From assembly GCF_023656565.1 (NCBI RefSeq), contig NZ_JAMOKG010000001.1, positions 1,060,456-1,124,455 of the forward strand: DNA of 64,000 nt. The letters run 5' to 3'. The translations under genes were made by a program, and so were the position numbers. This document shows positions 27,096 to 42,542 of the stretch, one piece after another. Within the stretch, counting starts at the first letter, position 1, and each line of letters starts with the position of its first letter. The stretch comes from Flavobacterium tyrosinilyticum (GTDB lineage: Bacteria; Bacteroidota; Bacteroidia; Flavobacteriales; Flavobacteriaceae). The notes below the pieces were generated by a model, which did not search any database, was not told the origin of the DNA, and saw only the letters and a program-made list of their open reading frames with translations.

Positions 27096-28229
27096 ATGTT
27101 TGAAGTATATATTACAAAAGCTGCAAAATATTTGCCAAACGAAGCTGTTTCTAATGATGAAATGGAAGCCTACTTGGGCCTTATCAATGATACTGCTTCC
27201 AAGGCTAGACGTATTATTTTGCGCAACAATAAAATTACAAGCCGATATTACGCTGTTGACAAAGAAGGAAAAAGCACACATAGCAATGCCGAATTAACCA
27301 AAAATGCCATTTTACCGTTATTCGACGAAAATTTTACGCCTCAAGATTTAGAGGTACTTTCTTGCGGGACCTCAACTCCAGACATTTTTCTGCCTTCACA
27401 CGCAGCGATGGTTCATGGTCTGCTAAAAAATAAATCGGTAGAATTAAACTCTTCAACGGGAGTTTGCTGTGCCGGAATGAACTCTCTTAAATTTGGTTTT
27501 CTTTCTATAAAATCTGGAAATTCAAAAAACGCAATCTGCACAGGATCAGAAAAAGTTTCTACTTGGCTGAATGCCCAAAAATACAATCACGAGGCCGATA
27601 ATTTAAAAAGCCTTGAAGAACAGCCAATTATTGCATTCAAAAAAGATTTTCTTCGTTGGATGCTGTCAGATGGTGCTGGAGCTTTTCTTTTGGAAAACAA
27701 ACCAAGAGGACCAATTTCATTAAAAATCGAATGGATGGAAGCTTTTTCGTATGCCTATGAATTAGAAACCTGTATGTATGCCGGAGGTGATAAATTGGAA
27801 AATGGTGAAATTAAAGGCTGGAGCGATTATTCTCCAGAACAATGGCTGAACGAATCTGTTTTTTCAATAAAACAGGACGTTAAATTATTAGACGAATTTA
27901 TCCTGTCAAAAGGTGCTCAAAGCATGAAAGACGCCATGGATAAAAACAATATTAAATCGGAAGATATTACTTATTTTATTCCTCATGTTTCTTCTAACTT
28001 TTTTGTGGAAGGATTGAAAAAAGGATTAAACGAAAAAGGTATCGGAATGAGCGATGACAAATGGTTCATGAATCTTTCTAGAGTAGGAAATGTTGGCTCT
28101 GCCTCTATTTACTTGGCTCTTGAAGAATTGATGAGTTCAGGGAATTTGAAAAAAGGAGATAAAATTTTATTATCTGTTCCAGAAAGCGGAAGATTCTCTT
28201 TTGCGTATGCCTATTTAACGGTTTGTTAA
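27096..28229 (+). CDS. darB: DarB, KAS III-type ketosynthase for dialkylresorcinol
   Basis: The product has 377 residues of the FabH/KAS III fold. The catalytic cysteine is in STGVCCAGMNS (C124 or C125), the histidine in FIPHVSSNFF, and the asparagine in GNVGSASIY. DarB joins two beta-keto acyl units into a 2,5-dialkyl-cyclohexane-1,3-dione, the precursor of the resorcinol half of flexirubin. The TAA stop overlaps the next ATG by one base (TAATG), so translation is coupled to the downstream dehydratase-like gene. Confidence 0.93.
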   Translation: MFEVYITKAAKYLPNEAVSNDEMEAYLGLINDTASKARRIILRNNKITSRYYAVDKEGKSTHSNAELTKNAILPLFDENFTPQDLEVLSCGTSTPDIFLPSHAAMVHGLLKNKSVELNSSTGVCCAGMNSLKFGFLSIKSGNSKNAICTGSEKVSTWLNAQKYNHEADNLKSLEEQPIIAFKKDFLRWMLSDGAGAFLLENKPRGPISLKIEWMEAFSYAYELETCMYAGGDKLENGEIKGWSDYSPEQWLNESVFSIKQDVKLLDEFILSKGAQSMKDAMDKNNIKSEDITYFIPHVSSNFFVEGLKKGLNEKGIGMSDDKWFMNLSRVGNVGSASIYLALEELMSSGNLKKGDKILLSVPESGRFSFAYAYLTVC

Positions 28230-28657
28230 TGGAAACAATGCTTTTAGAAAAAGAAATGGTCGAAAATTTACTGCCTCAAAAGTTTCCTTTTGTGATGGTA
28301 GATGCTATGCATTCTTATTCTGAAACTTCGTTGGTTTCGGGTTTAGAAATTCAGCGCGAAAATATTTTTGTATCAAACGATATTTTTCTTGAAGCTGGAT
28401 TAATAGAACATATGGCACAATCTGTGGCATTGCATACGGGATATCAATATTTCTTGAAAAACGAAATTGCTCCAACGGGCTATATCGGTTCTATTAAAGA
28501 AATTGAAATTAAGAAACTTCCAAAACTTAACGATACTATTCAATCTGAAGTTACGATTCTGCAGGAATTTGCAGGAATTACTTTGGTGAATATTGTTACG
28601 ACTTTAAATAATGAAGAGATTGCCAGAGGACAAATGAAAACCGTTTTGGCAAAATAA
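28229..28657 (+). CDS. FabZ-like hotdog protein with Glu but no His (dehydratase subunit)
   Basis: From the ATG at 28229 the product has 142 residues. KEMVENLLPQKFPFVMVDA aligns with the FabZ N-terminus, and LIEHMAQSVAL aligns with FabZ LILEAMAQATG, so the catalytic glutamate is kept. The loop that in FabZ carries the catalytic His (HFPG.P..PGV) is absent: RENIFVSNDIFLEAG is found instead. Alone it is unlikely to be a full dehydratase. A partner with the His would be needed, and one is encoded at 42171. The TAATG overlap with darB couples translation. An upstream TTG start at 28223 is possible but would add only two residues. Confidence 0.85.
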   Translation: METMLLEKEMVENLLPQKFPFVMVDAMHSYSETSLVSGLEIQRENIFVSNDIFLEAGLIEHMAQSVALHTGYQYFLKNEIAPTGYIGSIKEIEIKKLPKLNDTIQSEVTILQEFAGITLVNIVTTLNNEEIARGQMKTVLAK

Positions 28658-28666
28658 AAATAACCG

Positions 28667-29134
28667 ATGAAAACTACTTCTGCTGTTGACATACAAAACT
28701 ATTTACCGCACCGAGCTCCAATGCTTATGGTGGATTTGATTTTGGATATAGATGCCAACTTTGTAGAAACCATATTTTTGATAAAAGAAGACAATATTTT
28801 TATTCAGAATACTGTTTTTATAGAAGCAGGATTAATCGAAAATACAGCGCAGACTTGTTCTGCAATTGTTGGAAAAAAATACTTTTTTGACGATAACGGA
28901 ATCGAAAATGAAAACGTAAATGTAATTGGATTTATCAGCGCTTTAAAAAGTGTAAAAGTTCATGCATTGCCAAAAGTTGGCGATACGATCATAACAAAAG
29001 CCAATCTGGTTTCTAAATTTGTGGGCGACGATTATACTTTATGCACAATGAGCTGCAAAAGCTTATTGGAAGACCAGATTCTCTTAGAATGTGAAATTAA
29101 TTTGTTTATTCAGAAAACAATCTCGGTTGGATAA
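28667..29134 (+). CDS. Second FabZ-like hotdog protein with Glu but no His
   Basis: The product has 155 residues. IQNYLPHRAPMLMVDLILD is the FabZ-like start, and FIEAGLIENTAQTCSAIVG carries the glutamate in the usual place. The HFPG loop is missing, as in the upstream paralog, with KEDNIFIQNT in its place. The two genes are 9 nt apart and probably arose by duplication. It likely forms a homo- or heterodimer in polyene or alkyl-chain dehydration. A catalytic role alone is doubtful. Confidence 0.83.
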   Translation: MKTTSAVDIQNYLPHRAPMLMVDLILDIDANFVETIFLIKEDNIFIQNTVFIEAGLIENTAQTCSAIVGKKYFFDDNGIENENVNVIGFISALKSVKVHALPKVGDTIITKANLVSKFVGDDYTLCTMSCKSLLEDQILLECEINLFIQKTISVG

Positions 29135-29447
29135 TCCAAAAAATATCATTTTACATCTAGGGACTCGAATCGTTGTTTTGGCTCTTTTACTTGGTTTAGT
29201 TTTCTTAATTTGGTATTTTGGCCCTTCTCACTTTTCTGTAGAAAAAGGAGATAAACATAACGCTGGTGCTTTAGCAATGGTAATGATAATATCTGTTATA
29301 GTACTTATTTTTAATATAGTATTATTTATAGAAATGGTTGATTTATTTTTAAGGAAAAACAAAATTTTAGCTTTTACAAATCTTGGATTTTTAATAATTA
29401 GCCTATACATAATTTCAGTCTATATGTTTCCTAATATATTAAATTAA
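29127..29447 (+). CDS. Small membrane protein of the flexirubin cluster
   Basis: This is a hydrophobic protein with three predicted membrane segments (TRIVVLALLLGLVFLIWYF; MVMIISVIVLIFNIVLFIEM; LGFLIISLYIISVYMF). The frame is open from 29091, but an ATG there would overlap 44 nt of the previous gene. A TTG at 29127 starts just before the hydrophilic LDNPKN that precedes the first segment and overlaps the stop of the upstream gene by 8 nt, so I prefer it, with low certainty. I do not recognise the family. Position inside the biosynthetic operon suggests a membrane role in pigment assembly. Confidence 0.6.
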   Translation: MDNPKNIILHLGTRIVVLALLLGLVFLIWYFGPSHFSVEKGDKHNAGALAMVMIISVIVLIFNIVLFIEMVDLFLRKNKILAFTNLGFLIISLYIISVYMFPNILN

Positions 29448-29451
29448 CAAT

Positions 29452-29856
29452 ATGGAAAAAGAAAATGTACCACAAGACCAAAGCAACTTAACGAAAAATA
29501 ACGTTAAAGAGCTTTTGTACGCAACTGATGAAAATGGTAATTATACCACAACATTAAGTACGGGCTGGGAACCGAAAACAATTGCCCTTTCAAATTCTAT
29601 TGATGAAATAAACGAACGAATTGCCGATGCCAGACAACAGGTTTTAAATGGTGAAGCAAGTCCGATTGTGTATTTTATGGAAGTCAATAAAATGGATCTT
29701 AACATATTATCCAGCTATGTTGGGTTTTGGAAATGGCGCGTAAAAAGACATTTTAAACCAAGTGTTTTTGCCAAACTAAACGATAAAATCCTGAAAAAAT
29801 ATGCTGATACTTTTGGAGTATCAATCGAAGAATTAAAAAACAGCATTACCAAATAA
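29452..29856 (+). CDS. Conserved-looking hypothetical protein preceding the BtrH-like gene
   Basis: This 134-residue soluble protein is not recognised. It has an acidic, flexible N-terminus, a central helix (IDEINERIADARQQVLNG) and a basic segment (VGFWKWRVKRHFKPSVF), followed by a short helix-turn-like end (KYADTFGVSIEELKNSI). It has no signal peptide or membrane segment. Its stop is directly followed by the ATG of the BtrH-like gene, so the two proteins are likely made together and may interact. DNA binding is possible from the C-terminal pattern but unproven. Confidence 0.75.
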   Translation: MEKENVPQDQSNLTKNNVKELLYATDENGNYTTTLSTGWEPKTIALSNSIDEINERIADARQQVLNGEASPIVYFMEVNKMDLNILSSYVGFWKWRVKRHFKPSVFAKLNDKILKKYADTFGVSIEELKNSITK

Positions 29857-30855
29857 ATGGAATTAACTTTCACACATCATCAGTCTGCTCATTGCGAGAA
29901 TGGAGTAGCGTCAAATCTGCTAAAAAATAGCGGACTAAACATTAGCGAACCGATGGTTTTTGGTATTGGCTCTGGATTATTTTTTGTATATCTGCCTTTT
30001 ATAAAAGTGAATCATGCACCAGCAATCAGTTATAGAACTTTGCCTGGACAGATTTTCAATAAAGTTGCCACTCGTTTAAATTTAAAAATCAAAAGACAAA
30101 AATTTTCCTCTATTTCAAGTGCCAATAAAGCTTTAGACGAAAATTTAAAAAATAATATTCCAACCGGATTACAAGTTGGCGTATACAATTTAAGTTATTT
30201 TCCTGACGAATATCGTTTTCATTTCAACGCGCACAATTTAGTCGTTTACGGAAAAACCGAAACCGAATATTTAGTGAGCGATCCAGTAATGGAAACCGTT
30301 ACGACTTTAACTTACGAAGACATGAATAAAGTGCGTTTTGCCAAAGGAGCTTTTGCGCCTCGCGGACAAATGTACTATCCAATTCAGATTCCGAAAGAAG
30401 TCGATTTAAAAAGCGCCATCATTAAAGGAATCAAAAATACGTGCCGAGATATGCTTGCGCCAATGCCAATTGTTGGTATTCGCGGTATTAAAATGGTTTC
30501 TCGTCAGATTCGTAAATGGCCTAAAAAACATGGCGTTAGAAAAGCCAATCATTACTTGGCACAAATGGTTCGTATGCAGGAAGAAATTGGAACTGGTGGC
30601 GGTGGTTTCCGTTTTATTTATGCAGCTTTTTTACAAGAAGCTTCAGTTATTTTAGCTAACGAAGAACTGAAAGAACTTTCTAAAGAAATGACTCAAATTG
30701 GAGATTCATGGCGTGATTTTGCTGTTGAAGCTTCAAGAATTTATAAAAACAGAAGTGCCAAAGAAGATGCTTACAACACTATTGCCGATGAACTTTTGGA
30801 CATTGCCAATAGAGAAGAAATCTTTTTCAAAAAACTAAAAAAAGCGATCAGCTAA
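29857..30855 (+). CDS. BtrH-like papain-fold acyltransferase or thioesterase
   Basis: The product has 332 residues. The N-terminal half matches the BtrH N-terminal domain, with a plausible Cys-His-Asp triad: C13 in HHQSAHCENG, H126 in NAHNLVVYG and D142 in LVSDPV. The C-terminal half is helical (DUF4872-like, QEEIGTGGGGFRFIYAAFLQEAS). BtrH of butirosin synthesis moves an acyl chain from an ACP to an amine. Here the same chemistry with a hydroxyl could join the polyene acyl-ACP to the resorcinol. It is thus one of several candidates in the cluster for the ester-forming enzyme. The gene begins immediately after the previous stop. Confidence 0.82.
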   Translation: MELTFTHHQSAHCENGVASNLLKNSGLNISEPMVFGIGSGLFFVYLPFIKVNHAPAISYRTLPGQIFNKVATRLNLKIKRQKFSSISSANKALDENLKNNIPTGLQVGVYNLSYFPDEYRFHFNAHNLVVYGKTETEYLVSDPVMETVTTLTYEDMNKVRFAKGAFAPRGQMYYPIQIPKEVDLKSAIIKGIKNTCRDMLAPMPIVGIRGIKMVSRQIRKWPKKHGVRKANHYLAQMVRMQEEIGTGGGGFRFIYAAFLQEASVILANEELKELSKEMTQIGDSWRDFAVEASRIYKNRSAKEDAYNTIADELLDIANREEIFFKKLKKAIS

Positions 30856-30864
30856 AATCATATT

Positions 30865-31617
30865 TTGCAATCTATCATTCAAATAGAATCCCTTTCGAAA
30901 AAGTACAAAAATGCAGAAATGTATTCTTTGAACAATGTTTCGCTAAATATAAATGAAGGTCAGATTTTTGGTTTGCTCGGTCCAAATGGTGCTGGAAAAA
31001 CAACCTTGATCTCGATGCTCTGCGGATTGGTAAAACCAACTTCGGGACATTTTACAATCGATGGTTTAGACTATCAGCATCATGCTTCGAAAATTAAAAA
31101 AATCATAGGCGTTGTTCCACAAGAATATGCTTTGTATCCGACTTTGACTGCTAGAGAAAATCTGCTTTATTTTGGAAGTATGTACGGTTTAAAAGGTTCT
31201 GATTTAAAAGATAAAGTAATCGAGACTCTGGATCTTTTAGGTTTATTGAAATTTGCCGACAAACAAGTTCAGACTTTCTCGGGCGGAATGAAACGACGTG
31301 TCAATCTGATTGCCGGAATTCTCCATAATCCGAAAGTTTTGTTTTTGGATGAACCAACAGTTGGTGTGGACGTGCATTCTAAAACTGCCATTATCGATTA
31401 TCTGAAAGTTTTGAACCAAAACGGAACAACCATTATTTATACTTCGCATCATTTGGCTGAAGCCGAAGATTTCTGTTCGCAAATTGCGATTTTAGATCAA
31501 GGACAGATTTACGCACAAGCAACTCCGTTGGCATTGATTGAATCTACAAAAGACGCTCGAAATCTCGAAGATGTTTTTATTTCATTAACTGGTAAAGCGC
31601 TGAGAGATGATATATAA
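30865..31617 (+). CDS. ABC transporter ATP-binding protein (exporter type)
   Basis: The product has 250 residues with a Walker A GPNGAGKTT, the signature SGGMKRRVNL, and a Walker B VLFLDEPTVGVD. It belongs to the CcmA/drug-exporter ATPase group, which pairs with ABC-2 permeases. The reading frame needs a TTG start at 30865, since the first in-frame ATG would remove the beginning of the fold. It overlaps the permease gene by 11 nt. With that permease it could move pigment, an intermediate or lipid across the inner membrane. Confidence 0.92.
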   Translation: MQSIIQIESLSKKYKNAEMYSLNNVSLNINEGQIFGLLGPNGAGKTTLISMLCGLVKPTSGHFTIDGLDYQHHASKIKKIIGVVPQEYALYPTLTARENLLYFGSMYGLKGSDLKDKVIETLDLLGLLKFADKQVQTFSGGMKRRVNLIAGILHNPKVLFLDEPTVGVDVHSKTAIIDYLKVLNQNGTTIIYTSHHLAEAEDFCSQIAILDQGQIYAQATPLALIESTKDARNLEDVFISLTGKALRDDI

Positions 31618-32890
31618 AATTTGGATGTCGGTAGTAAAAGAATTCCTTTTGCTAAAAAGAGATTTAGGCGGATTGATTATTTTATTTATAATGCCTTTGG
31701 TTTTGGTAATTGCTGTAACCTTAATTCAGGACAGCACTTTTAAAGCCGTAACCGATTCTAAACTTCAGATTCTTTTGGTCGATAAAGACAAAGGATCTGT
31801 ATCAAAAACCGTTTTTGAAAATTTAGAAAAAAGCAAATATTTTACCGTTGTAACCCAAATTGACAATAAACCGATTACCGAAGAAATTGCCAAAGAAAAT
31901 GTGTACAAAGGAAAATTTCAACTGGCAATTGTAATTCCAGAAAACCTAAGTTCCGATTTACAGGAAAAAGTAAATCAGAATGTAGAGAAAATTGTCAGCA
32001 ATTTAGGTTTGACCGATAGCACTTCTGCTACCGAACCTCAGCGCATTATTAAAGAAAAAGAAGTAAAACTGTATTTTGACCCAGCGGTACAAATGAGTTT
32101 CAAAAATGCCGTAATGAGTTCGATTGACAAAATGATTTCTCAAATTGAAACCAAATCAATTTACAGCACTTTTCAAAAACAGTTAGGAGAAGAAACCATC
32201 GATTTTGAGCAAAAAAACTTTATTACTTTCAAAGAAATAATTCCGAGAATCAACAACAAAGAAGTTCGTCCAAATTCAGTTCAGCACAATGTTCCAGCGT
32301 GGACACTTTTTGCGATCTTTTTTATTGTAATTCCGTTATCTATCAATATTGTTAAAGAAAAATCACAAGGAACTTTTGTTCGATTAAGAACCAATCCGGT
32401 TTCTAATTTAGTGGTCATTATTGGAAAAACTATCACCTACTCGATCATCTGTATGATTCAGTTTTATATGATGGTTGCCGTTGCTGTATTCTTATTCCCA
32501 TCAATCGGATTGCCTTCACTAAACATCGAAGGTCATTTCTTGCTGACAAGTGTTGTCGCATTATTTTCAGGTTTTGCCGCCATCGGATTCGGAATCTTAT
32601 TAGGAACTGTAGCCAGCACACAAGAACAATCTGCTCCATTTGGCGCTACAAGTGTGATCATTTTAGCCGCAATTGGCGGTGTTTGGGTTCCTGTTTTTGC
32701 TATGCCGAAAATCATGCAGTATATCGCAAAATCATCTCCAATGAACTGGGGATTAGAAGCTTTTTACGATGTATTACTTAGAAACGTTTCTTTCGTTGAA
32801 ATCATACCAAGAATAAGTTTATTATTTTTGTTTTTCATTATTACCACTTCCATCGCATTATTTTATGATAAAAAGAAAAGAGCAGTTTAA
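31607..32890 (+). CDS. ABC-2 type transporter permease
   Basis: The product has 427 residues: one N-terminal membrane segment (GGLIILFIMPLVLVIAVTLI), a large periplasmic domain (about 45-225), then five or six segments (WTLFAIFFIVIPLSINIV onward). This is the ABC-2/YhaP-type exporter layout. It overlaps the ATPase gene by 11 nt and the thioesterase gene by 26 nt. The last of these is a long overlap. The substrate is not shown, but pigment or a lipid precursor is likely from context. Confidence 0.9.
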   Translation: MIYKIWMSVVKEFLLLKRDLGGLIILFIMPLVLVIAVTLIQDSTFKAVTDSKLQILLVDKDKGSVSKTVFENLEKSKYFTVVTQIDNKPITEEIAKENVYKGKFQLAIVIPENLSSDLQEKVNQNVEKIVSNLGLTDSTSATEPQRIIKEKEVKLYFDPAVQMSFKNAVMSSIDKMISQIETKSIYSTFQKQLGEETIDFEQKNFITFKEIIPRINNKEVRPNSVQHNVPAWTLFAIFFIVIPLSINIVKEKSQGTFVRLRTNPVSNLVVIIGKTITYSIICMIQFYMMVAVAVFLFPSIGLPSLNIEGHFLLTSVVALFSGFAAIGFGILLGTVASTQEQSAPFGATSVIILAAIGGVWVPVFAMPKIMQYIAKSSPMNWGLEAFYDVLLRNVSFVEIIPRISLLFLFFIITTSIALFYDKKKRAV

Positions 32891-33314
32891 AGAAGCTACA
32901 GATCTAACCGTTTCACACGAAATTAGGATTCGTTTTAACGAAACAGATCCGCTTGGAATTGTTTGGCACGGCAATTACATTACGTATTTCGAAGATGGAC
33001 GTGAAGCGTTTGGGCGCCAGCATGGACTTACATATCTGGATATTGCCAAAACGGGTTATACCACGCCAATTGTAAAATCGACTTGCGAACATAAATTATC
33101 TTTGCGTTATGGTGATGTGGTGACAATAGAAACAACAGTTGTTGATACTCCCGCAGCCAAAATGATTTACCGTTTTAAAATTATTGATGATAAAGGAGAA
33201 GTAGCATGTACAGGAGAAACCACTCAGGTTTTCTTAGATGCAGCAGGAAATTTAATGCTGACCAATCCTCCTTTTTATGAGGAATGGAAACGAAAAGTTG
33301 GGTTATTGAAATAA
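32865..33314 (+). CDS. 4-hydroxybenzoyl-CoA-type hotdog thioesterase
   Basis: The product has 149 residues of the hotdog fold. IRFNETDPLGIVWHGNYITYFEDG carries the D-x-x-G-x-x-x-x-x-N pattern (D28) of 4HBT/YbgC thioesterases (written here as DPLGIVWHGNY). It would release an acyl chain from ACP or CoA, for example the polyene acid or an alkyl chain. The gene overlaps the permease gene by 26 nt in another frame. A GC-poor repeat gap follows before the next ketosynthase. Confidence 0.9.
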   Translation: MIKRKEQFKEATDLTVSHEIRIRFNETDPLGIVWHGNYITYFEDGREAFGRQHGLTYLDIAKTGYTTPIVKSTCEHKLSLRYGDVVTIETTVVDTPAAKMIYRFKIIDDKGEVACTGETTQVFLDAAGNLMLTNPPFYEEWKRKVGLLK

Positions 33315-33316
33315 AA

Positions 33317-33400
33317 CACGGATTACACGAATTTTCACGAATTAAAAAATAAAAATCTTTTTTAAATCTGCTGAAATCTTTATAAATCTGCGTGAAAATT
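33317..33400. repeat. Composite repeat sharing the CACGAATT and AATCTGCGTGAAA families
   Basis: ACACGAATTTTCACGAATTA at 33325-33345 resembles part of the 16808 element, and AATCTGCTGAAATCTTT followed by AATCTGCGTGAAAAT (about 33364-33398) is nearly the same as 7558-7592. There is no coding signal in the 107-nt gap. Confidence 0.7.
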
Positions 33401-33421
33401 TAAAAAATTGAGATTCATAAA

Positions 33422-34561
33422 ATGTTAAGAGAAATATACATTACAGAAACGAATTGTATCACGCCTTTGGGTTTTGATGTTGAATCTAATATCGGTGCCA
33501 TTCTTCGTGGAGATTCTGGAATTCAGCTTCATAACGATGTTTCTTTGATGCCGAATCCGTTTTATGCTTCGATTATTTCTGATGAAAAAATAAACAGTGC
33601 TTTTTCAAAAATTAGTCCTGACACCAAATATTCCCGTTTAGAGAAAATGATGATTTTGGCTTTAGAGCCGATTATCAAAAATTCAAACGTAGAATTAAAT
33701 TCAAAAACTGCTTTTATACTTTCTACCACAAAAGGAAATGTTACCGCTTTGGCAAATGATTCTGAGGAAAGTTTCAACAACGCACATTTAGATGTTTTAG
33801 CAAAAAACGTTGCCGATTGGTTCGGATTCCAAACACAACCCATAGTAGTTTCAAATGCTTGCGTTTCTGGAATTTTAGCCGTTTCTGTTGCCAAAAGAAT
33901 GATTCAGTCTGAACTTTACGACAACATTTTTGCAGTGGCTGGCGATGAAGTTTCAGAATTTGTTTTATCTGGTTTTAATGCTTTCCAAGCCATGAGCGAA
34001 CTGCCTTGTAAACCCTATTCTAAAAACAGAACGGGAGTAAGTTTAGGCGAAGCGACAGCAGCAGTTTTAGTTACGGCGGAAGCCAAAAACGCTAAAATAA
34101 AAGTAATTGGCGACAGTTCGATAAACGATGCGAATCATATTTCTGGACCTTCAAGAACAGGTGAAGGTTTGTTCAGAAGCATTCAGAATGCCTTGAAAGA
34201 AGCGCAAATTGAGGCAAACAAATTAGATTATATTTCAGCCCACGGAACCGCAACGCCTTACAATGACGAAATGGAAGCGATTGCTCTAACTCGTTTAGAT
34301 TTACAAAATGTTCCAGTAAATAGTTTAAAAGGATTTTACGGTCATACACTTGGCGCTTCGGGATTATTGGAAACCGTAATTGCCATAGAATCTGCCAATC
34401 AAAATAAACTTTTTGAATCGAAAGGTTTTGATGAAATTGGTGTAAGCGAATCTATTAATGTAATTGAGAAAAATGAAGAAAAAAATATTGAATATTTTCT
34501 AAAAACGGCTTCTGGTTTTGGAGGTTGTAATACGGCTGTGGTTTTTGAGAAAGTAAAATAA
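33422..34561 (+). CDS. Beta-ketoacyl-ACP synthase (APE/flexirubin type)
   Basis: The product has 379 residues with a complete triad: C147 in SNACVSGILA, H274 in SAHGTATP and H308 in YGHTLGASG. The sequence is shorter than the KAS II at 23531 and closer to KS proteins of aryl polyene clusters. It may extend or prime a chain of its own. After it comes a 271-nt gap that holds a reverse-strand ORF and then a lipoprotein gene, which breaks the tight gene packing seen elsewhere. Confidence 0.92.
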   Translation: MLREIYITETNCITPLGFDVESNIGAILRGDSGIQLHNDVSLMPNPFYASIISDEKINSAFSKISPDTKYSRLEKMMILALEPIIKNSNVELNSKTAFILSTTKGNVTALANDSEESFNNAHLDVLAKNVADWFGFQTQPIVVSNACVSGILAVSVAKRMIQSELYDNIFAVAGDEVSEFVLSGFNAFQAMSELPCKPYSKNRTGVSLGEATAAVLVTAEAKNAKIKVIGDSSINDANHISGPSRTGEGLFRSIQNALKEAQIEANKLDYISAHGTATPYNDEMEAIALTRLDLQNVPVNSLKGFYGHTLGASGLLETVIAIESANQNKLFESKGFDEIGVSESINVIEKNEEKNIEYFLKTASGFGGCNTAVVFEKVK

Positions 34562-34573
34562 ATAATAACAGAA

Positions 34574-34759: not shown

Positions 34760-34766
34760 GAGATAT

Positions 34767-34832: not shown

Positions 34833-35516
34833 ATGAAGCTATCAAAATTCATATTTATAACACTCACCATTCTTTCATCTTTTGGATGTAAGAAGAAAGA
34901 AGTGCCTAAATCTGAATTTGAAAAAGAGGTTTTAAATAGTGTTTTTGTCGAAATTGTAGATTCTATTTATATGGATCGAAGAATGATGCTTGGACCACCA
35001 CCTCCATTATTTAGTTCTAAAACAAATAAAATAGATACCACAGGACATGCTGCAGAATTAAAGAAATATTTACAGTATAAAGACAGCATAAAAAACATTA
35101 AAAAAAGAATCTTATTAGGTGTCTATGACCAAGTTGGAAAAATTAGTTCTTTTGAAACAGAAATGATTTCTAAAGAAGTTGTTCTTTCAAACTTTGCGTA
35201 TGACACTTTAAAAGAAGGCGAAGAATTTAAATTTGATTTAAAACCTTTTAAGAATAATAAAAAGTTTCGTTTTGAAAATACTTCCAAATATCTTCATGAA
35301 AAAGAATGGAACTTAAATGATAAAAGTAATTCTTTGATACCTGTTGGAACTATTTTTATATCTAGAATTCAATTTGACAAAACAAAAAAATCAGGAATTT
35401 TATCAGCTGGTGCTTCATGTGGTGGTGGAAAATGCGGAAGAGGTTTTCTTGTTTTAGTTGAAAACAAGGCAGGGAAATGGAAAGTAAATAAAATTATTCA
35501 TCTTTGGGATTCATAA
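34833..35516 (+). CDS. Hypothetical lipoprotein
   Basis: The product has 227 residues with a lipoprotein signal ending SSFGC (Cys 19), followed by a lysine-rich stretch and a segment GPPPPLF near 55. A CGGGKCGRG motif near residue 200 could bind metal or form disulfides. I do not recognise the family. It is in the same direction as the pigment genes but has wider spacing and looks unlike a biosynthetic enzyme, so it may be an insertion in the cluster together with the reverse ORF upstream. Confidence 0.72.
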   Translation: MKLSKFIFITLTILSSFGCKKKEVPKSEFEKEVLNSVFVEIVDSIYMDRRMMLGPPPPLFSSKTNKIDTTGHAAELKKYLQYKDSIKNIKKRILLGVYDQVGKISSFETEMISKEVVLSNFAYDTLKEGEEFKFDLKPFKNNKKFRFENTSKYLHEKEWNLNDKSNSLIPVGTIFISRIQFDKTKKSGILSAGASCGGGKCGRGFLVLVENKAGKWKVNKIIHLWDS

Positions 35517-35536
35517 CTTGAATCCGTTATTAAAAA

Positions 35537-36154
35537 ATGACTCAAAACAAAACCTACATACAATCCTACATCACCATCCAAAACAACGAAATTGTTTTGA
35601 ACGGAAATTCTGTATTCAAAATTGAACCAACAGATTTTGCTGATTTCTCGAAACAAGCGTATCGAAATTTTGAAATGCAATATCCAAAGTTTTTCAAAAT
35701 GGATGCTTTGAGCAAACTCGCTTTTTTAGGATCAGAATTGCTTTTGAGTCCGATAACCTCAACGGAACAAGAAAATAATATTGCTTTAGTTTTGGCTAAT
35801 AAATCGTCGAGTTTGGATACCGATGTAAAATATCAGGAATCTATTTCAGACAAAGAAAACTATTATCCGAGTCCGGCGGTCTTTGTTTATACGCTGCCAA
35901 ATATTTGTTTGGGCGAAATAAGTATCCGTCATCAGCTGAAAAGTGAAAATTCTTTCTTTATATTTGATGCCTTTAACACCGAATTTATGTCTAATTATTC
36001 AAATATTCTTCTGAATACGAATAAAGCAGATGTGGTTTTGTGCGGTTGGGTAGAATATTTTAACGACAATTATAAAGCTTTTTTATGTACAATTAGTACA
36101 GAAGAAAATGCAAAATATACAAACGAGACTATCAATACATTATACAATAAATAA
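35537..36154 (+). CDS. Short ketosynthase-like protein without catalytic Cys (chain-length-factor-like)
   Basis: The product has 205 residues, about half a ketosynthase. It resembles the short beta-ketoacyl synthase family (Ketoacyl-synt_2) found in aryl polyene clusters: FADFSKQAYRNFEMQ, ALVLANKSSSLDTD and PSPAVFVYTLPNICLGEIS are visible. The position of the nucleophile elbow reads IFDAFNTEF with no cysteine, so it cannot condense on its own. A structural or chain-length role with a full KS is likely. It ends 2 nt before the second ACP gene. Confidence 0.78.
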   Translation: MTQNKTYIQSYITIQNNEIVLNGNSVFKIEPTDFADFSKQAYRNFEMQYPKFFKMDALSKLAFLGSELLLSPITSTEQENNIALVLANKSSSLDTDVKYQESISDKENYYPSPAVFVYTLPNICLGEISIRHQLKSENSFFIFDAFNTEFMSNYSNILLNTNKADVVLCGWVEYFNDNYKAFLCTISTEENAKYTNETINTLYNK

Positions 36155-36156
36155 TC

Positions 36157-36414
36157 ATGGAAGCATTAAAAGAAGAATTAAAAAATAAAATCATAACAAC
36201 TTTAAACCTTGAAGATATTGCAGTAGAAGATATTGCTGATAACGATCCTTTGTTTGGAGACGGTTTAGGTTTAGACTCGATTGATGCACTTGAATTGATC
36301 GTGATTTTAGATAAAGATTACGGAATTAAATTAGTAGATCCGAAAGAAGGAAAATCTATTTTCCAGTCTATCGAAACTATGGCGGCGTATATCAGCGCTA
36401 ACAGAACGAAGTAA
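36157..36414 (+). CDS. Acyl carrier protein 2
   Basis: The product has 85 acidic residues with the phosphopantetheine serine at S41 in GLGLDSIDALEL. It clearly differs from the ACP at 24759, so each probably serves a different chain. It lies 2 nt after the KS-like gene and is followed by a repeat gap before the KS/CLF pair. Confidence 0.95.
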   Translation: MEALKEELKNKIITTLNLEDIAVEDIADNDPLFGDGLGLDSIDALELIVILDKDYGIKLVDPKEGKSIFQSIETMAAYISANRTK

Positions 36415-36546
36415 GACTTCTTAGACTGACTTAGATTTTTAGACTTCTTAGACAATGCTTTTCAAAAATCTAAAAAGTCTAAAAATCTAAGCCAGTCTAA
36501 AAAAATCTAAGAAGTCTAAAATTCTAACAATCTAAGAAGTCTAAAA
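36415..36546. repeat. Repeat-rich gap with many AGTCTAA / TTAGACT words
   Basis: A 26-nt arm (36421-36446, starting TTAGACTGACTTAG) pairs with 36475-36500 with one mismatch. Further AATCTAAGAAGTCTAA words at about 36507-36545 can pair with the same arm. The whole gap between ACP and KS is thus one inverted and partly tandem repeat, able to form alternative hairpins in the mRNA. Confidence 0.8.
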
Positions 36547-37743
36547 ATGAAAGGTGTTGCAATAACGGGAATGGGAATTATCTCTGCGATTGGTAATTCG
36601 GTTGAGGAAAATTATATTTCGCTGACCGAAAACAAAATCGGCATTTCTCGTATTCAAAATATTTCGACTGTTCACGCAGATGTTATCAAAGTTGGTGAGA
36701 TCAAAAAAACCAATGAAGATCTTGTTGATGAACTGAAATTAAAGGAGAATAATAATTTCTCTAGAACCGCTATGATTGGCACTTTGGCAGCAAAACAAGC
36801 TGTTGAAAATGCTGGCATTACCGATATAAATGAATTTAGAACGGGACTTATTTCGGCTACCAGCGTTGGCGGAATGGACATGACGGAAAGACATTATTAC
36901 GATTATTTCGAAAAACCAGAATTGATCAAGTACATTACTTGCCACGATGGTGGCGATGTCGCCGAAAAAATTGCTGAAGAATTAGGTTTAAAAGGAATGG
37001 TGACAACTATTTCTACGGCTTGTTCATCTGCCGCCAATTCGATTATGTTGGGCGCAAGATTAATCAAAACGGGAAAACTGGATCGCGTAATTGTAGGCGG
37101 AGCCGATGCTTTGGCAAAATTCACCATAAACGGATTTAAGACTCTTATGATTTTATCTGACGATTACAACAAACCTTTTGACAACACCAGAAAAGGATTG
37201 AATCTGGGAGAAGCTGCCGCTTTTTTAGTTTTAGAATCAGATGAAATTGTAGAAAAGCAAAACAAAAAAGTGCTGGCAAGAGTTTCGGGTTACGGAAATG
37301 CCAACGACGCCTTTCACCAAACTGCTTCTTCAGAAAATGGAGACGGCGCTTATTTGGCCATGAAGAAAGCGTTTGACGTTTCGGGTTTAAAACCTTCTGA
37401 AATTGATTACATCAATGTGCACGGAACTGCAACTCCAAACAACGATTTATCTGAAGGAAGAGCTTTGCTCCGAATTTATGAAAACGAAAAAGTTCCAGAT
37501 TTCAGTTCTACAAAACCTTTTACAGGACATACTTTAGCGGCCGCGGCTGCGATTGAAGCCGTTTACAGTGTTTTGGCAATTCAGAATAATGTGGTTTACC
37601 CCAATTTGAATTTTGAAGTTCCGATGGAAGAATTTGATTTGAAACCGCAGACAACTTTAAAAAATAAAAACATAGAGCACGTTTTATCTAACTCTTTTGG
37701 TTTTGGAGGAAATTGTTCAACCCTTATATTTTCAAAAAGCTAA
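36547..37743 (+). CDS. Beta-ketoacyl-ACP synthase, catalytic KS of a KS/CLF pair
   Basis: The product has 398 residues and a full triad: C159 in STACSSAAN, H292 in NVHGTATP and H328 in FTGHTLAAA. The C-terminal SNSFGFGGNCSTLIF is typical of FabF-like enzymes. The gene's TAA overlaps the ATG of the next gene by one base (TAATG), and that partner lacks the cysteine. This is the arrangement of type II PKS KS/CLF pairs such as ApeO/ApeC of aryl polyenes, so it is the best candidate for building the conjugated polyene. Confidence 0.94.
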   Translation: MKGVAITGMGIISAIGNSVEENYISLTENKIGISRIQNISTVHADVIKVGEIKKTNEDLVDELKLKENNNFSRTAMIGTLAAKQAVENAGITDINEFRTGLISATSVGGMDMTERHYYDYFEKPELIKYITCHDGGDVAEKIAEELGLKGMVTTISTACSSAANSIMLGARLIKTGKLDRVIVGGADALAKFTINGFKTLMILSDDYNKPFDNTRKGLNLGEAAAFLVLESDEIVEKQNKKVLARVSGYGNANDAFHQTASSENGDGAYLAMKKAFDVSGLKPSEIDYINVHGTATPNNDLSEGRALLRIYENEKVPDFSSTKPFTGHTLAAAAAIEAVYSVLAIQNNVVYPNLNFEVPMEEFDLKPQTTLKNKNIEHVLSNSFGFGGNCSTLIFSKS

Positions 37744-38804
37744 TGACGAAGACATATATAAATGGAGTAGGTTGTATTTCGACTCAAAAAACATTTGATA
37801 CTGTTTTTTTGGAAGAAGCTGTTGTAAATCATGAAGAAAATGTACTGGCAATTATTCCGCCAGCATACAAAGAATATATTTCGCCAGCTGCCAGCCGACG
37901 CATGGCAAAAGGCGTAAAAAACGGAATCGTAGCTTCAGCTTTGGCTATGAAAGATGCTAATATTGAAAATGTCGATGCCATTATCACAGGAACTGGTTTA
38001 GGTTGTATCGAAGATTCTGAAAAATTCCTGAAAAGTATTTTAGATAATAACGAAGAGTTTTTAACTCCGACTTCTTTCATTCAGTCTACTCACAATACAG
38101 TTGGAGCGCAGATTGCACTTTTACAGCAATGTAAAGGTTATAATTTTACCTATGTTAATGGCGCTGTTTCTTTTGAATCGGCTCTTATTGATGCTAAAAT
38201 GCAAATTGAAGAAGCTGAAGCTAACTCGATTTTAGTAGGCGGTGTTGATGAAAATGGAGATTATACGACTTCGCTTTTTAAACTAAACGGTCGCATTAAA
38301 GCAGACAATTCTGCTCCGTACGATGTTTTAAATTCTACAACGAGCGGTGCTGTATATGGTGAAGGCGCCAATTTTTTTGTTTTAGAACACGAAAGAAAAG
38401 AAAACACTTATGCCGAACTTCTAGATGTTTCTATTGTAAATACGCTGGAAGAAAATGAAGTTGAAGCAGCAATTATTTCTTTCTTAAAATCAAATCATTT
38501 AGAAATCTCAGATGTTGACGCGCTTGTTTTAGGTTTTGACGGAAATGTCGATTTTGAGAATTATTATAGAAATCTTGCCGAAAATTCGTTTGCGCAAACT
38601 CCTGTTTTATATTACAAACATTTGAGTGGAGAATACGATACGGCTTCGGCTTTTGCTTTTTGGATGGCTGCTAAAATTTTGAAAACTCAAGAAATTCCTG
38701 AAATCGTAAAAGTAAATGCTGTTGAAAAATCAGAATACAAAACGATTTTATTATACAATCAATTAAACGGAAAAAACCATAGTTTTACGCTGCTGTCAAA
38801 ATGA
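37743..38804 (+). CDS. Chain-length-factor-like ketosynthase homolog
   Basis: From the ATG at 37743 the product has 353 residues. It keeps the thiolase fold (DAIITGTGLGCIEDSEKF, STHNTVGAQIALLQ, AVYGEGANFFVLEH) but lacks the nucleophile: aligned with the upstream KS, C159 corresponds to G140 in YVNGAVSFES, and the first histidine motif is also lost (VLGFDGNVDF). This is as expected of a chain length factor. TAATG coupling to the KS supports a heterodimer. It overlaps the deacetylase-like gene by 4 nt. Confidence 0.87.
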   Translation: MTKTYINGVGCISTQKTFDTVFLEEAVVNHEENVLAIIPPAYKEYISPAASRRMAKGVKNGIVASALAMKDANIENVDAIITGTGLGCIEDSEKFLKSILDNNEEFLTPTSFIQSTHNTVGAQIALLQQCKGYNFTYVNGAVSFESALIDAKMQIEEAEANSILVGGVDENGDYTTSLFKLNGRIKADNSAPYDVLNSTTSGAVYGEGANFFVLEHERKENTYAELLDVSIVNTLEENEVEAAIISFLKSNHLEISDVDALVLGFDGNVDFENYYRNLAENSFAQTPVLYYKHLSGEYDTASAFAFWMAAKILKTQEIPEIVKVNAVEKSEYKTILLYNQLNGKNHSFTLLSK

Positions 38805-39586
38805 TAACGCACAAAAACATATCGCTGTTTTTTATCTTTTTATTGCTTTTATTGTTTCTTCTGAATCTGTATAACGCAATTCATTTTCTGTGGTTTATTG
38901 TTATAATTCTCATTTGGATCGGAATAAATGCTTTTGGATCAGCCCGAATTTCTTCCAATTATCATGTAAAAGCTTATTGCAGTAATCCGTTAGAAACCGA
39001 AAAAAAAATTGCACTCACTTTTGATGATGGTCCAAGTATTTACACTTTGGAAGTTTTGGAACTTTTGAAAAAATACAATGCTAAAGCCACTTTTTTCTGC
39101 ATTGGAAAAAACATCGAAACGCATCCTGAAATTCTCCAGAAAGTAATTGACGATGGTCATTTAGTTGGAAATCATTCTTATTCACATTCTAAGTTTTTTG
39201 ATTTTTATAATGCTAAAAAAATAACCGAAGAACTTCAGAAAACAGACGCGCTTCTGGAAAAATTCACTTCTAGAAAAATCAACTTTTTTCGTCCGCCCTA
39301 TGGAATTACGACACCTTCGATTAGAAGAGCTTTAAAAGTAACCGGACATAAAACAATTGGCTGGAATATTCGTTCGCTTGACGGAGGAACCCAAAATCAG
39401 GAATTAATTTTCAATCGGTTAATTAAGCATATATCTCCCGGCGGAATTGTACTTTTGCATGATACAGCAGAACATTCGGTTTTGGTACTGGAACAGTTTT
39501 TGCAATTTTTACAGCAAAATAATTATCAAGTGATTTCTGTTGAAGAATTACTGAAGCTTAATGCTTATGAAATTGAACGCGGATAA
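38801..39586 (+). CDS. Membrane-anchored polysaccharide-deacetylase (NodB-fold) protein
   Basis: The product has 261 residues. Two hydrophobic N-terminal segments (ISLFFIFLLLLLFLLNLY; FLWFIVIILIWIGINAF) are followed by a NodB domain from about residue 60: LTFDDGPS (catalytic Asp pair), NHSYSHS (metal His pair), and RPPYG. Such enzymes remove acetyl groups from carbohydrates, but homologs occur in aryl polyene-type clusters where the substrate is unknown. ATGA overlap with the CLF gene indicates co-translation. A hydrolytic step on a lipid-linked or acylated intermediate is a guess. Confidence 0.88.
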   Translation: MITHKNISLFFIFLLLLLFLLNLYNAIHFLWFIVIILIWIGINAFGSARISSNYHVKAYCSNPLETEKKIALTFDDGPSIYTLEVLELLKKYNAKATFFCIGKNIETHPEILQKVIDDGHLVGNHSYSHSKFFDFYNAKKITEELQKTDALLEKFTSRKINFFRPPYGITTPSIRRALKVTGHKTIGWNIRSLDGGTQNQELIFNRLIKHISPGGIVLLHDTAEHSVLVLEQFLQFLQQNNYQVISVEELLKLNAYEIERG

Positions 39587-39591
39587 AACAG

Positions 39592-39665
39592 ATTCGCTTG
39601 CGCGAAGACGCAGATAAAACGAATTTTTCTAATCCTTTTAATCTGTGAAATCTGTGGCAAAAAAA
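39592..39665. repeat. Short repeat-derived gap (AATCCTTTTAATCTGTG word)
   Basis: AATCCTTTTAATCTGTG near 39632-39648, followed by CTGTGGCAAAAA, is the same word as the outer arm of the composite repeat at 12981-13129. The remainder carries GCGAAGACGCAGATAAAACG. No gene is seen. Confidence 0.6.
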
Positions 39666-39688
39666 TTAAAGCACATTTTTGAAAAAAT

Positions 39689-40315
39689 ATGAAAACTAAA
39701 ATAGCACTACTCATTCTATTTATTTCAGGCAATTTGTTCGCACAGGAACAAAAAATGACCGATGCCGAAATTGCTTCTTTTAAACAAGATGTAAATGTGG
39801 TGGCCAAAAAAATCAAGACGTTGACGACTGATTTTGTTCAGTATAAACATTTAGATTTTTTATCAAAAGACATTGAAACTTCAGGAAAAATGGTTTTTAA
39901 AGAACCTGCTTTACTTCAATGGCAATATAAAAAACCATACAACTATAGCATCACTTTCAAAAACGGAAAAATCCTGATTAACGATGAAGGAAAGAAAAGT
40001 GCGGTTGATATTGGAAACAGTAAAATCTTTGCCCGAATTAATAAATTGATCGTGGGAAGTGTGAGCGGCAATATGTTTGACGATAAAGAATTTACGATTT
40101 CGTATTTTAAATTGAAAGGTCAGAATCTGGCGAAATTTATTCCGAAAGATGCGACGCTTAAAAAATACATCAAACAAATTGAACTGACTTTTGACAAAGA
40201 GGAAGCGACTGTTGTTCAGGTAAAATTGTTAGAATCATCTGAAGATTATACCCGAATTGTACTTAAAAATAAAGTGATCAATGCAAAAATCGACGATTCA
40301 GTTTTTACTAATTAA
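39689..40315 (+). CDS. LolA-like periplasmic lipoprotein or pigment carrier
   Basis: The product has 208 residues: a signal peptide (KTKIALLILFISGNLFAQ) and a LolA-type half-barrel (about 22-205), with the strand FVQYKHLDFLSKDIETSGKM and MVFKEPALLQWQYKKP as characteristic parts. LolA homologs occur in aryl polyene clusters, where they are thought to carry the hydrophobic pigment across the periplasm, not lipoproteins. Its 3' end overlaps the next gene by 35 nt. Confidence 0.88.
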   Translation: MKTKIALLILFISGNLFAQEQKMTDAEIASFKQDVNVVAKKIKTLTTDFVQYKHLDFLSKDIETSGKMVFKEPALLQWQYKKPYNYSITFKNGKILINDEGKKSAVDIGNSKIFARINKLIVGSVSGNMFDDKEFTISYFKLKGQNLAKFIPKDATLKKYIKQIELTFDKEEATVVQVKLLESSEDYTRIVLKNKVINAKIDDSVFTN

Positions 40316-40916
40316 TTGCTTTCTGGCAATTGTTTTAATTTCTTGTGGCTCGGTCACAAAAAATTATACGTCCAAAAAATTAGACAAAACGTCTTATACA
40401 GTTCCGTATTTTTCAGACTCAAAAACCGATTATGTTTATAAAACCAACATTAGTGTTTACGGAAATGAATTGTCTGGAATTTTTATTGCCAAGAAAATAA
40501 ATGACACCACACACCGAATTGTTTTTACAACCGAATTCGGAAACAAATTAATGGATTTCGAAATTTCAGAAACCGATTTTAAAGTCAATTCGATTGTGTC
40601 TGAATTGGATCGAAAAATATTGATCAATACTTTAAAAGAAGATTTCCGATTGCTTTTAAAGAAAGAATATTCGATTCAGGAACAATTCGAAAACGAATCG
40701 GATGACATTTACAAATCGGCAGATGGCAAACGCGACAATTACATTTTTATCTCCAAAAAAGATCAGAAATTAGAAAAGATCGTCCATGCTTCTCAAACAA
40801 AAGAAAAATTTACACTGCTTTTCAGTTCAGAAAACAATATTTTTGCCGAAAGGATTCAGATAATCCATCAGAATATTAAATTGAAAATTGAACTGAATTA
40901 TTTCAAATCAGAATAA
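40281..40916 (+). CDS. Lipoprotein of the pigment envelope module
   Basis: The product has 211 residues with a lipoprotein signal, LINCFLAIVLISCGS (Cys about 22). The mature part is beta-rich (TNISVYGNELSGIFIAKK, HRIVFTTEFGNKLMDFEI), similar in layout to the DUF3261-type lipoproteins of aryl polyene clusters, although I cannot assign the family firmly. The long 35-nt overlap with the LolA-like gene and the following beta-barrels suggest it is the outer-membrane acceptor that works with LolA. Confidence 0.78.
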   Translation: MQKSTIQFLLINCFLAIVLISCGSVTKNYTSKKLDKTSYTVPYFSDSKTDYVYKTNISVYGNELSGIFIAKKINDTTHRIVFTTEFGNKLMDFEISETDFKVNSIVSELDRKILINTLKEDFRLLLKKEYSIQEQFENESDDIYKSADGKRDNYIFISKKDQKLEKIVHASQTKEKFTLLFSSENNIFAERIQIIHQNIKLKIELNYFKSE

Positions 40917-40953
40917 AAACTTAAACTAATCCTAAACTTAAACCAAACCCAAA

Positions 40954-41550
40954 ATGAGAAAATTTGTTTTAATTGCATTTGTTTTATTAATCGGAATCCA
41001 AGCAGAAGCTCAAATAAAAGTTAGTCCAGGACTAAGAGGTGGTTTGAATGTATCAACATTAACGAATATTGATGATAATAGCTCTAAAACTGATTTCTAT
41101 GTTGGTGGATTGGTAAATATTAAATTCAATAAATTTTTCTCGGTTCAACCAGAGATAAATTATTCCAGACAAGGTGATGAAGGAAGATATTTTGAAAACG
41201 GCCGTTATTATTCTGAAAAGTATGAGTTGAATTATATAACACTGGGAGCGGTTGCAAAATTTAACTTTGGAGGTGGAGGTTTTCATTTATTAGCAGGCCC
41301 TTCTTTAGATTTAAAAGTTAGTGATAATTATATAAATACTAACCCCGAAGATTTTGATCTTGCATTTGTTGGAGGTCTTGGTTATACTTTACCAAATGGT
41401 TTAACTTTTGAAGCTCGACTTAAACAAGGATTAATTGATATTTATGGTTATAACGGATATGATTATGACAATAATGGATATTACTATAATGATGTAATCT
41501 TAAATCAAGTTTTCCAAATCGGAATTAGTTATACGTTTAAAACAAAATAA
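40954..41550 (+). CDS. Outer-membrane beta-barrel protein, copy 1
   Basis: The product has 198 residues with a signal peptide (RKFVLIAFVLLIGIQAEAQ) and a small porin-like eight-stranded barrel: VSPGLRGGLNVSTL, KFFSVQPEINYSRQG, FHLLAGPSLDLKVSD, TFEARLKQGLIDIYG, and a terminal FQIGISYTFKTK. A paralog follows after 2 nt. It is an outer-membrane protein of the OmpA-barrel/PorT-like type. A role in pigment insertion is inferred from position. Confidence 0.88.
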   Translation: MRKFVLIAFVLLIGIQAEAQIKVSPGLRGGLNVSTLTNIDDNSSKTDFYVGGLVNIKFNKFFSVQPEINYSRQGDEGRYFENGRYYSEKYELNYITLGAVAKFNFGGGGFHLLAGPSLDLKVSDNYINTNPEDFDLAFVGGLGYTLPNGLTFEARLKQGLIDIYGYNGYDYDNNGYYYNDVILNQVFQIGISYTFKTK

Positions 41551-41552
41551 AA

Positions 41553-42164
41553 ATGAATAAAAGAATATTCTTCTTTATTGCTGTTTTTTTCTCGCTTTTA
41601 AATATACAAGCGCAAGTATCAGTTAAACCAGGTTTAAGAGCTGGTTTTAGTTTTTCGACTATTTCTGAAATGCACGCCGATTATAAAACTGATTTTTATG
41701 CTGGTGGTTTTACAGAAATTAAGATAACAAGAATTTATTCCCTTCAGCCTGAAATTAATTACAGCAGACAAGGTTCTAATAATGTTGCGCGAAATTATTT
41801 TGATGAAAATACACAGACCAATAAAGTAGAACATTTAGATCTGGACATCAACTATTTGTCTCTTTCTATGATAAATAAGTTTACGTTGCCACAAGGAATT
41901 CAGTTTCAAGCAGGGCCAACATTAGATATTTTATTGAATGATAATCTTGCGGTTAGAAAAGCACAAAATGATCTTGGTTTGGTTTTAGGAGTCGCTTATG
42001 CCCTACCTTCAGGTTTGACATTTGAAGCTCGATTTAAAAAAGGACTGCTTGATGTTTTAAGCAGCGATTATTATCAAAATGACTCCAATAACCATTATTT
42101 ATTTGGAGATTATAACACAAATATTAATTTTCAGTTAGGGGTTTCCTATTCATTTGGAAAATAA
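41553..42164 (+). CDS. Outer-membrane beta-barrel protein, copy 2
   Basis: The product has 203 residues with the signal peptide FFFIAVFFSLLNIQAQ and a barrel like that of the preceding gene: VSVKPGLRAGFSFSTI, SLQPEINYSRQGS, GIQFQAGPTLDILLND, TFEARFKKGLLDVL, and terminal FQLGVSYSFGK. Shared motifs show a tandem duplication, with the extracellular-loop segments having diverged most. It lies 2 nt after copy 1 and 6 nt before the dehydratase-like gene. Confidence 0.88.
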   Translation: MNKRIFFFIAVFFSLLNIQAQVSVKPGLRAGFSFSTISEMHADYKTDFYAGGFTEIKITRIYSLQPEINYSRQGSNNVARNYFDENTQTNKVEHLDLDINYLSLSMINKFTLPQGIQFQAGPTLDILLNDNLAVRKAQNDLGLVLGVAYALPSGLTFEARFKKGLLDVLSSDYYQNDSNNHYLFGDYNTNINFQLGVSYSFGK

Positions 42165-42170
42165 AAAAAT

Positions 42171-42542
42171 ATGATTTTACAAGATTTTTATAAAATACTA
42201 TCAGATGAAAAAGTATCTGATTCAAAATATACTGTTACTATTTTAGTCAACGAAAAACACGAGGTTTTTAAAGGACATTTCCCTGGAAATCCAATCATGC
42301 CTGGTGTTTGTATGATTCAGATTATCAAAGAACTTACAGAATCTATTACCAAAAGTTCGCTGATGATCCAATCTTTGGCAAATGTAAAATTCATGGCACT
42401 GATTAATCCTGAGGCTACTCCAGAATTACGATTGGAATTGGACATTACAACTACCGAAGACGGTTTAGTAAAAGTGAAAAACACGACTTACTTTAACGAC
42501 ACAACTGCTCTTAAATTGAGTAATGTGTACAAAAAAATATAA
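42171..42542 (+). CDS. FabZ-like hotdog protein with His but no Glu (dehydratase subunit)
   Basis: The product has 123 residues. KGHFPGNPIMPGV is the full FabZ catalytic loop with its histidine. In FabZ the next helix carries the catalytic Glu (PGVLILEAMAQ), but here it reads PGVCMIQIIKEL, with Gln at that position. This is the reverse of the two hotdog proteins at 28229 and 28667, which keep Glu and lack His. FabZ active sites are formed by His of one subunit and Glu of the other, so a heterodimer would restore a full site. It ends 2 nt before the next gene. Confidence 0.87.
   Translation: MILQDFYKILSDEKVSDSKYTVTILVNEKHEVFKGHFPGNPIMPGVCMIQIIKELTESITKSSLMIQSLANVKFMALINPEATPELRLELDITTTEDGLVKVKNTTYFNDTTALKLSNVYKKI

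Follow-up and report, generated by a model that had tools for sequence, protein, structure and literature searches.

How does a pigment gene cluster dehydrate its growing chains when none of its three small hotdog-fold proteins seems to carry a complete dehydratase active site? The question is raised by a 64,000-nucleotide stretch of the 5.29 Mb Flavobacterium tyrosinilyticum genome (contig NZ_JAMOKG010000001.1, positions 1,060,456 to 1,124,455 of the forward strand; hereafter the window), which, judging by its gene content, is a combined flexirubin (aryl-polyene) and dialkylresorcinol (DAR) cluster. A preliminary description of the window had singled out two FabZ-like genes keeping the catalytic Glu and a third one keeping the catalytic His, and the three open reading frames (ORFs) do lie where it had placed them:

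28229..28657, + strand: P1, a putative Glu-type hotdog half-dehydratase adjoining darB, with Glu60 and without the catalytic His loop (the ORF listing also offers an alternative TTG start at 28223)

28667..29134, + strand: P2, a second, divergent Glu-type hotdog protein, with the motif LIENTAQ and without the His loop

42171..42542, + strand: P3, a putative His-type hotdog half-dehydratase, with His36 and a Gln at the acid position

The answer that we hold to be highly probable is that P3 would pair with a Glu-type protein, namely P1 and probably P2 as well, to make up a heterodimeric hotdog 3-hydroxyacyl-ACP (acyl carrier protein) dehydratase with one composite site. The His and the acid of one FabZ site are supplied by two subunits; in the heterodimer, His36 of P3 and the Glu of its partner (Glu60 in P1) would likewise face each other across the dimer interface, and the mirror site would be dead, because it would hold the Gln of P3 together with the shortened, His-less loop of the partner. 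The physical complex, its chemistry and its substrate are what we infer by analogy, the substrate most likely being the beta-hydroxyacyl-ACP from each aryl-polyene elongation cycle of flexirubin. We favour this polyene role because there are genomes with the pair but without DarB, and because fatty-acid or alkyl precursors could use the FabZ domain of an ordinary LpxC-FabZ fusion, encoded in the same genome and carrying both His and Glu.

The catalytic residues themselves are divided as had been proposed. P1 carries NIFVSNDIFLEAGLIEHMAQ and P2 carries NIFIQNTVFIEAGLIENTAQ, both with the Glu and both lacking HFPG; when aligned with the LpxC-FabZ of the same genome, their His-loop region is 4-5 residues shorter and the central-helix Glu is kept. 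P3 carries GHFPGNPIMPGVCMIQIIKE, with the His present and Gln in place of Glu, and retains GHFPGNPIMPGV at FabZ spacing, the distance from the His to the acid column being 14 residues in the genome's own FabZ, in P3 and in 50 of 50 His-type relatives. The proposal would have failed at this point had P3 contained a Glu, or P1 and P2 a His, at a displaced position; both were sought by alignment and neither was found, as the acid column of P3 holds no Glu, and no column of the 57-row Glu-type alignment is conserved as His. P1 does have a His directly after its Glu (IEHMAQ), which is not taken as a shifted catalytic His because this column is Asn in 40 of the 57 rows and His in 15. Some His occurs within the 30 columns before the Glu in 25 of the 57, any one of these columns holding it in at most 11 rows (and that column is Asn in 41).

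This division is conserved among the relatives of both types that were collected from 247 genomes of the window's class, Bacteroidia (the class sample; genomes are given as G numbers). The Glu is present in all 56 Glu-type ORFs that cover the active site, out of 57 from 51 genomes (the remaining one, from G050, being a fragment that lacks the active site), whereas HFP occurs in 0/57. The His is present in 50/50 His-type ORFs, in which the acid column reads Q in 40, E in 4, R in 3, K in 2 and H in 1, leaving 46/50 without an acid; the His-type of G181, cut at a contig end, stands outside this residue count and was scored as present for co-occurrence. At 80 named loci, all of the Flavobacterium group by title, the first gene reads IEHMAQ and the second IENTAQ in 80/80, with HFP in 0/160 proteins; these are 80 of the 124 loci found by similarity to P2, and are therefore uninformative on genomes without it. 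P2 itself shares 98% identity with its counterpart in Flavobacterium sp. LHD-85, in line with the window belonging to the order Flavobacteriales. P1, P2 and P3 are all under purifying selection, dN/dS against two relatives being 0.06 and 0.11 for P1, 0.11 and 0.11 for P2, and 0.03 and 0.04 for P3 (dS exceeds 1 in the second comparison). A scan of viral contigs with P3 yielded nine stretches that fit a pattern, none of which encodes a relative.

The variability of the His-type acid column (Q, R, K, E, H) might be read differently, namely that P3 homodimers dehydrate by their His alone and P1/P2 merely shape the pocket, much as HadAB is described, in the accessible part of PMC4491049, as having its catalytic dyad on one subunit and substrate binding on the other. 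However, the partner Glu is invariant (56/56), and it is not obvious why a subunit that only shapes the pocket should require it, so that we regard such a mechanism as very improbable.

The two types are also found together. Counting strong matches (E up to 8.2e-21 for the Glu-type and up to 1.9e-17 for the His-type, the next matches being an LpxC-FabZ fusion at 3.4e-14 and the second piece of the G181 His-type at 1.5e-14), 48 of the 247 genomes have both, 3 the Glu-type only (G054, G196, G216), 3 the His-type only (G151, G209, G223) and 193 neither. Five of these six exceptions are genomes of 60-78% completeness, G054 being 98% complete. Fisher's test on this table gives p of about 1e-43, a figure to be taken as a description and not as a fair probability because the genomes share ancestry. 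Among 196 genomes of the window's order (the order sample), 37 have both types, 158 neither and a single one the His-type only, its cluster ending with the contig.

How do the predicted folds and family profiles relate to this? AlphaFold2 monomer models were obtained for P1 and P3 (mean pLDDT 94.5 and 94.4, respectively). The first VIA-align match of P3 is ApeI (6qsr_A; Z 16.3, rmsd 1.9, 112 aligned), which is within 1 Z of, and thus tied with, 3esi_A (15.7) and the FabZ 8ayd (15.6); P1 matches ApeP (6qsr_B) at Z 20.0 (rmsd 1.7, 136 aligned), tied with FabZ chains at Z up to 20.6. P3 scores 19.9 bits against PF22818 (ApeI-like), below the gathering cut-off of 28.5, and 29 of 41 members of its family match that model at E up to 0.01. 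Profile comparison pairs the Glu-type with ApeP at 95.1% and the His-type with ApeI at 97.1%. P3 has its catalytic His in a GHF loop, as ApeI does, and the Glu-types have kept the Glu and lost the loop His, as in ApeP. The FabZ models are missed by a wide margin, both TIGR01750 (25.2, 30.9 and 37.7 bits for P1, P2 and P3; cut-off 155.15) and NF000582 (32.5, 33.7 and 37 bits; cut-off 113). None of the three proteins unites His and Glu in one chain, as in FabZ, or holds both catalytic residues on one subunit, as in HadAB/HadBC. The composite site put forward in the preliminary description is supported by the reciprocal, conserved loss, by co-occurrence and by the P3/ApeI and P1/ApeP fold matches, although the last of these are tied with FabZ chains.

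A combined flexirubin and DAR cluster is indicated because curated models identify FlxA, FlxB, DarB, DarG and FlxY above their cut-offs:

19749..21269, + strand: FlxA, tyrosine ammonia-lyase (NF053541 above cut-off)

22632..23363, + strand: FlxB, ketoreductase (NF053542 above cut-off)

26146..27078, + strand: a gene upstream of darB, which we take, by its position, to be DarA-like (its only Pfam match is to flavodoxin, below cut-off)

27096..28229, + strand: DarB, dialkylresorcinol ketosynthase (NF053539 above cut-off)

29452..29856, + strand: DarG (NF053545 above cut-off)

32865..33314, + strand: a 4HBT-type thioesterase, distinct from the Glu-type proteins

36547..37743, + strand: a ketosynthase, presumably of the polyene polyketide synthase (PKS)

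37713..38804, + strand: a ketosynthase-like protein that on visual inspection lacks the active-site Cys, a candidate chain-length factor (CLF)

51244..52533, + strand: FlxY, acyl-CoA ligase (NF053551 above cut-off)

Some further ORFs of the cluster may be recorded here. An ORF of 118 aa resembling a membrane protein (29091-29447) lies between P2 and darG, overlapping the 3' end of P2, and among the gene-context strings made is present in the window and in its near relative G101 only. At 35537-36154 lies a 205-aa ORF with counterparts next to KS2 and ACP2 at many flexirubin loci. It scores above cut-off with no Pfam model and shows no meaningful BLAST similarity to E. coli ApeC; that it is a short chain-length factor would be a guess. 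At 43047-44222 a family 2 glycosyltransferase is fused to a DUF2062 domain.

Where, then, do the two halves lie in other genomes? In the 48 genomes with both, they are at most 22 kb apart in 22, on different contigs in 24, and in the remaining two they share a contig at distances of 478 and 668 kb. Contig breaks seem to account for some of the 24 (in G008 one contig breaks off behind the thioesterase gene and KS2 opens the other); the two-locus arrangement is nevertheless real, because both genes can be found tens of kb inside long contigs (e.g., G133, G076, G064). At the other extreme, the Glu-type and His-type genes are adjacent in G107 and G139 (L070:3969-4772 and L071:15179-15972), overlapping in the latter by about 10 bases if the first start codon is used; these stretches have no dar genes, and the His-type there keeps its Glu. 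Single Glu-type genes that cover the site number 44: at a distance of up to 2.6 kb, 26 of them have darB and 12 others have polyene-cluster acyltransferase or thioesterase genes instead, the last 6 having other neighbours. A Glu-type is present in every one of the 44 class-sample genomes that possess a stand-alone DarB, and 7 of the 51 Glu-type genomes are without a stand-alone DarB (one of the seven is 78% complete, and one has only a fused DarB-like protein), from which it follows that the pair goes with the polyene rather than with DAR. DarB-like ketosynthases whose reading frames run to 616-635 codons were seen in G011, G024, G031, G192 and G240; compared with the usual DarB they seem to be longer or extended by fusion.

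The proximity to darB in 26 single-copy genomes and the 44/44 figure could also speak for Glu-types that are no dehydratase halves at all, but act by themselves, e.g., as hotdog thioesterases, some of which use a helix Glu, or, in the dialkylresorcinol branch, as partners of the housekeeping FabZ; G054, with its intact Glu-type beside darB and no His-type, fits this as well. Yet the Glu-type co-occurs almost strictly with the His-type, seven Glu-type genomes dispense with a stand-alone DarB, which argues against a tie to dialkylresorcinol, the cluster already has a 4HBT thioesterase of its own, and the top fold matches of P1 are FabZ and ApeP; we therefore deem action alone improbable.

Several points do weigh against the composite dehydratase of P3 and a Glu-type protein. 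Related genomes share their history, so the 247 are not independent trials, and four of the 50 His-types (G107, G131, G139, G162) retain the Glu and could therefore work alone. The structural support consists of monomer models, the fold of P1 is no nearer to ApeP than to ordinary FabZ, and ApeI is only rank 31 for P3 by Foldseek E-value; P1 has no match to a Pfam family, and with E limited to 0.01 none of 25 Glu-type members is hit by a Pfam model, PF22817 (ApeP-like) included, E. coli ApeP itself scoring 141.2 bits against that model. A further case is G054, whose Glu-type beside darB is intact at 148 codons. It is alone among the nine genomes of its genus that were covered in having no His-type, no FlxA was found in it above cut-off, it has one CLF match against two in its relatives G009 and G212 (the CLF of the His-type contig is the absent one), and its Glu-type gives no sign of relaxed selection, dS being mostly saturated or not computable. 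This suggests that a Glu-type may be of use even where there is no His-type, possibly in a His-independent role in the DAR branch. The exception may also stem from a recent loss or an assembly gap. Another genome of the genus, G435 (70% complete), is without the Glu-type. At the G054 locus (L140, G054:C58:11500-31000) darA, darB, the Glu-type and an ACP are retained, and a DAR-only producer is a possibility.

What is the second Glu-type gene for? The preliminary description was correct in counting two Glu-type genes per His-type, an arrangement that is conserved in the window's order: 34 of the 37 Glu-positive order-sample genomes have two Glu-types, each with one His-type, and in the three single-copy ones (G334, G355, G422) the gene stands in a polyene context with no darB within the 19.5 kb read. 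In the class sample, two Glu-types were found in 6 of the 51 Glu-positive genomes, five of the six belonging to this order, and the other 45 have a single one. The Glu-type residues of the order survey come from 25 loci (23 of them paired) and 8 further regions (4 paired, 3 single and 1 without, the pairs of G326, G402 and G382 being also among the 25 loci) rather than from all 34 two-copy genomes; in the second copies read, the Glu is kept in an EN.AQ motif. A tree of 107 sequences unites the order's 29 P1 rows in a single clade (100/100) and its 29 P2 rows in another (100/100, on a branch of length 2.0), with both copies of G024, from another order, outside these clades. When unconstrained, the tree groups P2, at weak support (80/81), with certain genes from polyene or other contexts, and P1 and P2 as one clade are not rejected (p-AU 0.548), so that P2 may have arisen by tandem duplication or be an older paralogue. 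Its dN/dS and its conservation argue against a decay of P2.

We think that P2 serves P3 as another Glu-partner, a specialised one, and has been retained since before f1 and f2, the two families of the order where it occurs, split apart. The long branch of P2 and the single Glu-type in 45 of 51 genomes could instead mean that P2 is non-catalytic, regulatory or in a P1:P2 pair, P1 being the sole working partner of P3; with the Glu kept in the second copies read and purifying selection on P2 (dN/dS about 0.11), this seems unlikely, less strongly so than the two mechanisms discounted above. The more specific idea that in Flavobacteriales one P3 His-subunit is common to two dedicated Glu-subunits, half-site exchange directing the dehydratase to one substrate or another, or to either the polyene or the dialkylresorcinol machinery, is offered tentatively and is, if anything, rather doubtful. 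No direct support was obtained for the suggestion in the preliminary description that partners are exchanged for polyene and alkyl chains, and the single-copy majority, the seven genomes without a stand-alone DarB and an LpxC-FabZ that could serve fatty acids do not favour it; as a possibility it is still a fair hypothesis, made more interesting by the two-to-one arrangement being conserved through the order.

The split of His and Glu between proteins, neither of which looks like a canonical enzyme by itself, would, if true, explain the seemingly redundant dehydratases of these clusters, and would functionally link polyene and resorcinol clusters, since the halves often lie in two gene clusters. 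The two-Glu/one-His arrangement of Flavobacteriales also provides, in three small proteins, a natural system for a more general question: does a half-site swap alter substrate choice?

The closest known system is ApeI:ApeP, the accessible text of PMC8041823 describing ApeI/ApeP as heterodimeric dehydratases with a single active site, and the title of PDB 6QSR naming the dehydratase heterocomplex ApeI:P of aryl polyene biosynthesis in Xenorhabdus doucetiae; the use of a hetero-complex of two dehydratases by aryl polyene clusters, cited in the preliminary description, is accordingly right. Both systems belong to an aryl polyene type II PKS and comprise two kinds of hotdog protein, one with the His and the other with the Glu, and the composite-site principle as such is already known from ApeI:ApeP (PDB 6QSR), the present analysis extending it to flexirubins, pigments that serve as chemotaxonomic markers. 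The ApeP of E. coli CFT073 keeps the Glu (LELMAQ) and lacks the His, and its ApeI keeps the His; the acid column, however, is Asp in this ApeI and Gln in P3, the ApeP loop is nearly of FabZ length by alignment whereas those of P1 and P2 are shorter, and the E. coli cluster has one ApeP per ApeI instead of two Glu-types per His-type. What is new is a cleaner reciprocal loss, halves that often lie at distant loci, and two Glu-types per His-type in 34 of 37 Glu-positive genomes of the order. FabZ and LpxC-FabZ have the fold and the motif columns in common with P1-P3, but carry in one chain the His and Glu of which P1, P2 and P3 have one each.

In the flexirubin cluster of Chitinophaga pinensis, FlxF and FlxS are named dehydratases (PMC3992019), and by gene order FlxF would be the Glu-type and FlxS the His-type, P3 being the probable FlxS counterpart on the same grounds; the accessible part of that account speaks of dehydratases without a division of residues and mentions no second Glu-type. 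Within the open-access literature, which leaves out most subscription journals, no paper on split flexirubin dehydratases turned up beyond FlxF/FlxS being so called in the text available. The arcuflavin genes arcI and arcS of Azoarcus sp. BH72, both called dehydratases in the accessible text of PMC3949708, look similar by gene description and lie far apart by their locus numbers. The nearest precedent for partner exchange, by analogy, is the partner choice of HadB in mycobacterial FAS-II, where, according to the available portions of PMC3245277 and PMC4491049, HadA/HadB/HadC give a heterodimeric dehydratase with one site, and HadB pairs with HadA or HadC in a manner linked to the specificity of the elongation complex. 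HadB, however, holds both His and Asp, whereas here the residues are divided between subunits, so that a P3 shared by two Glu-subunits, as tentatively proposed above, would amount to a catalytic-residue-swapping version of the HadA/HadC partner switch.

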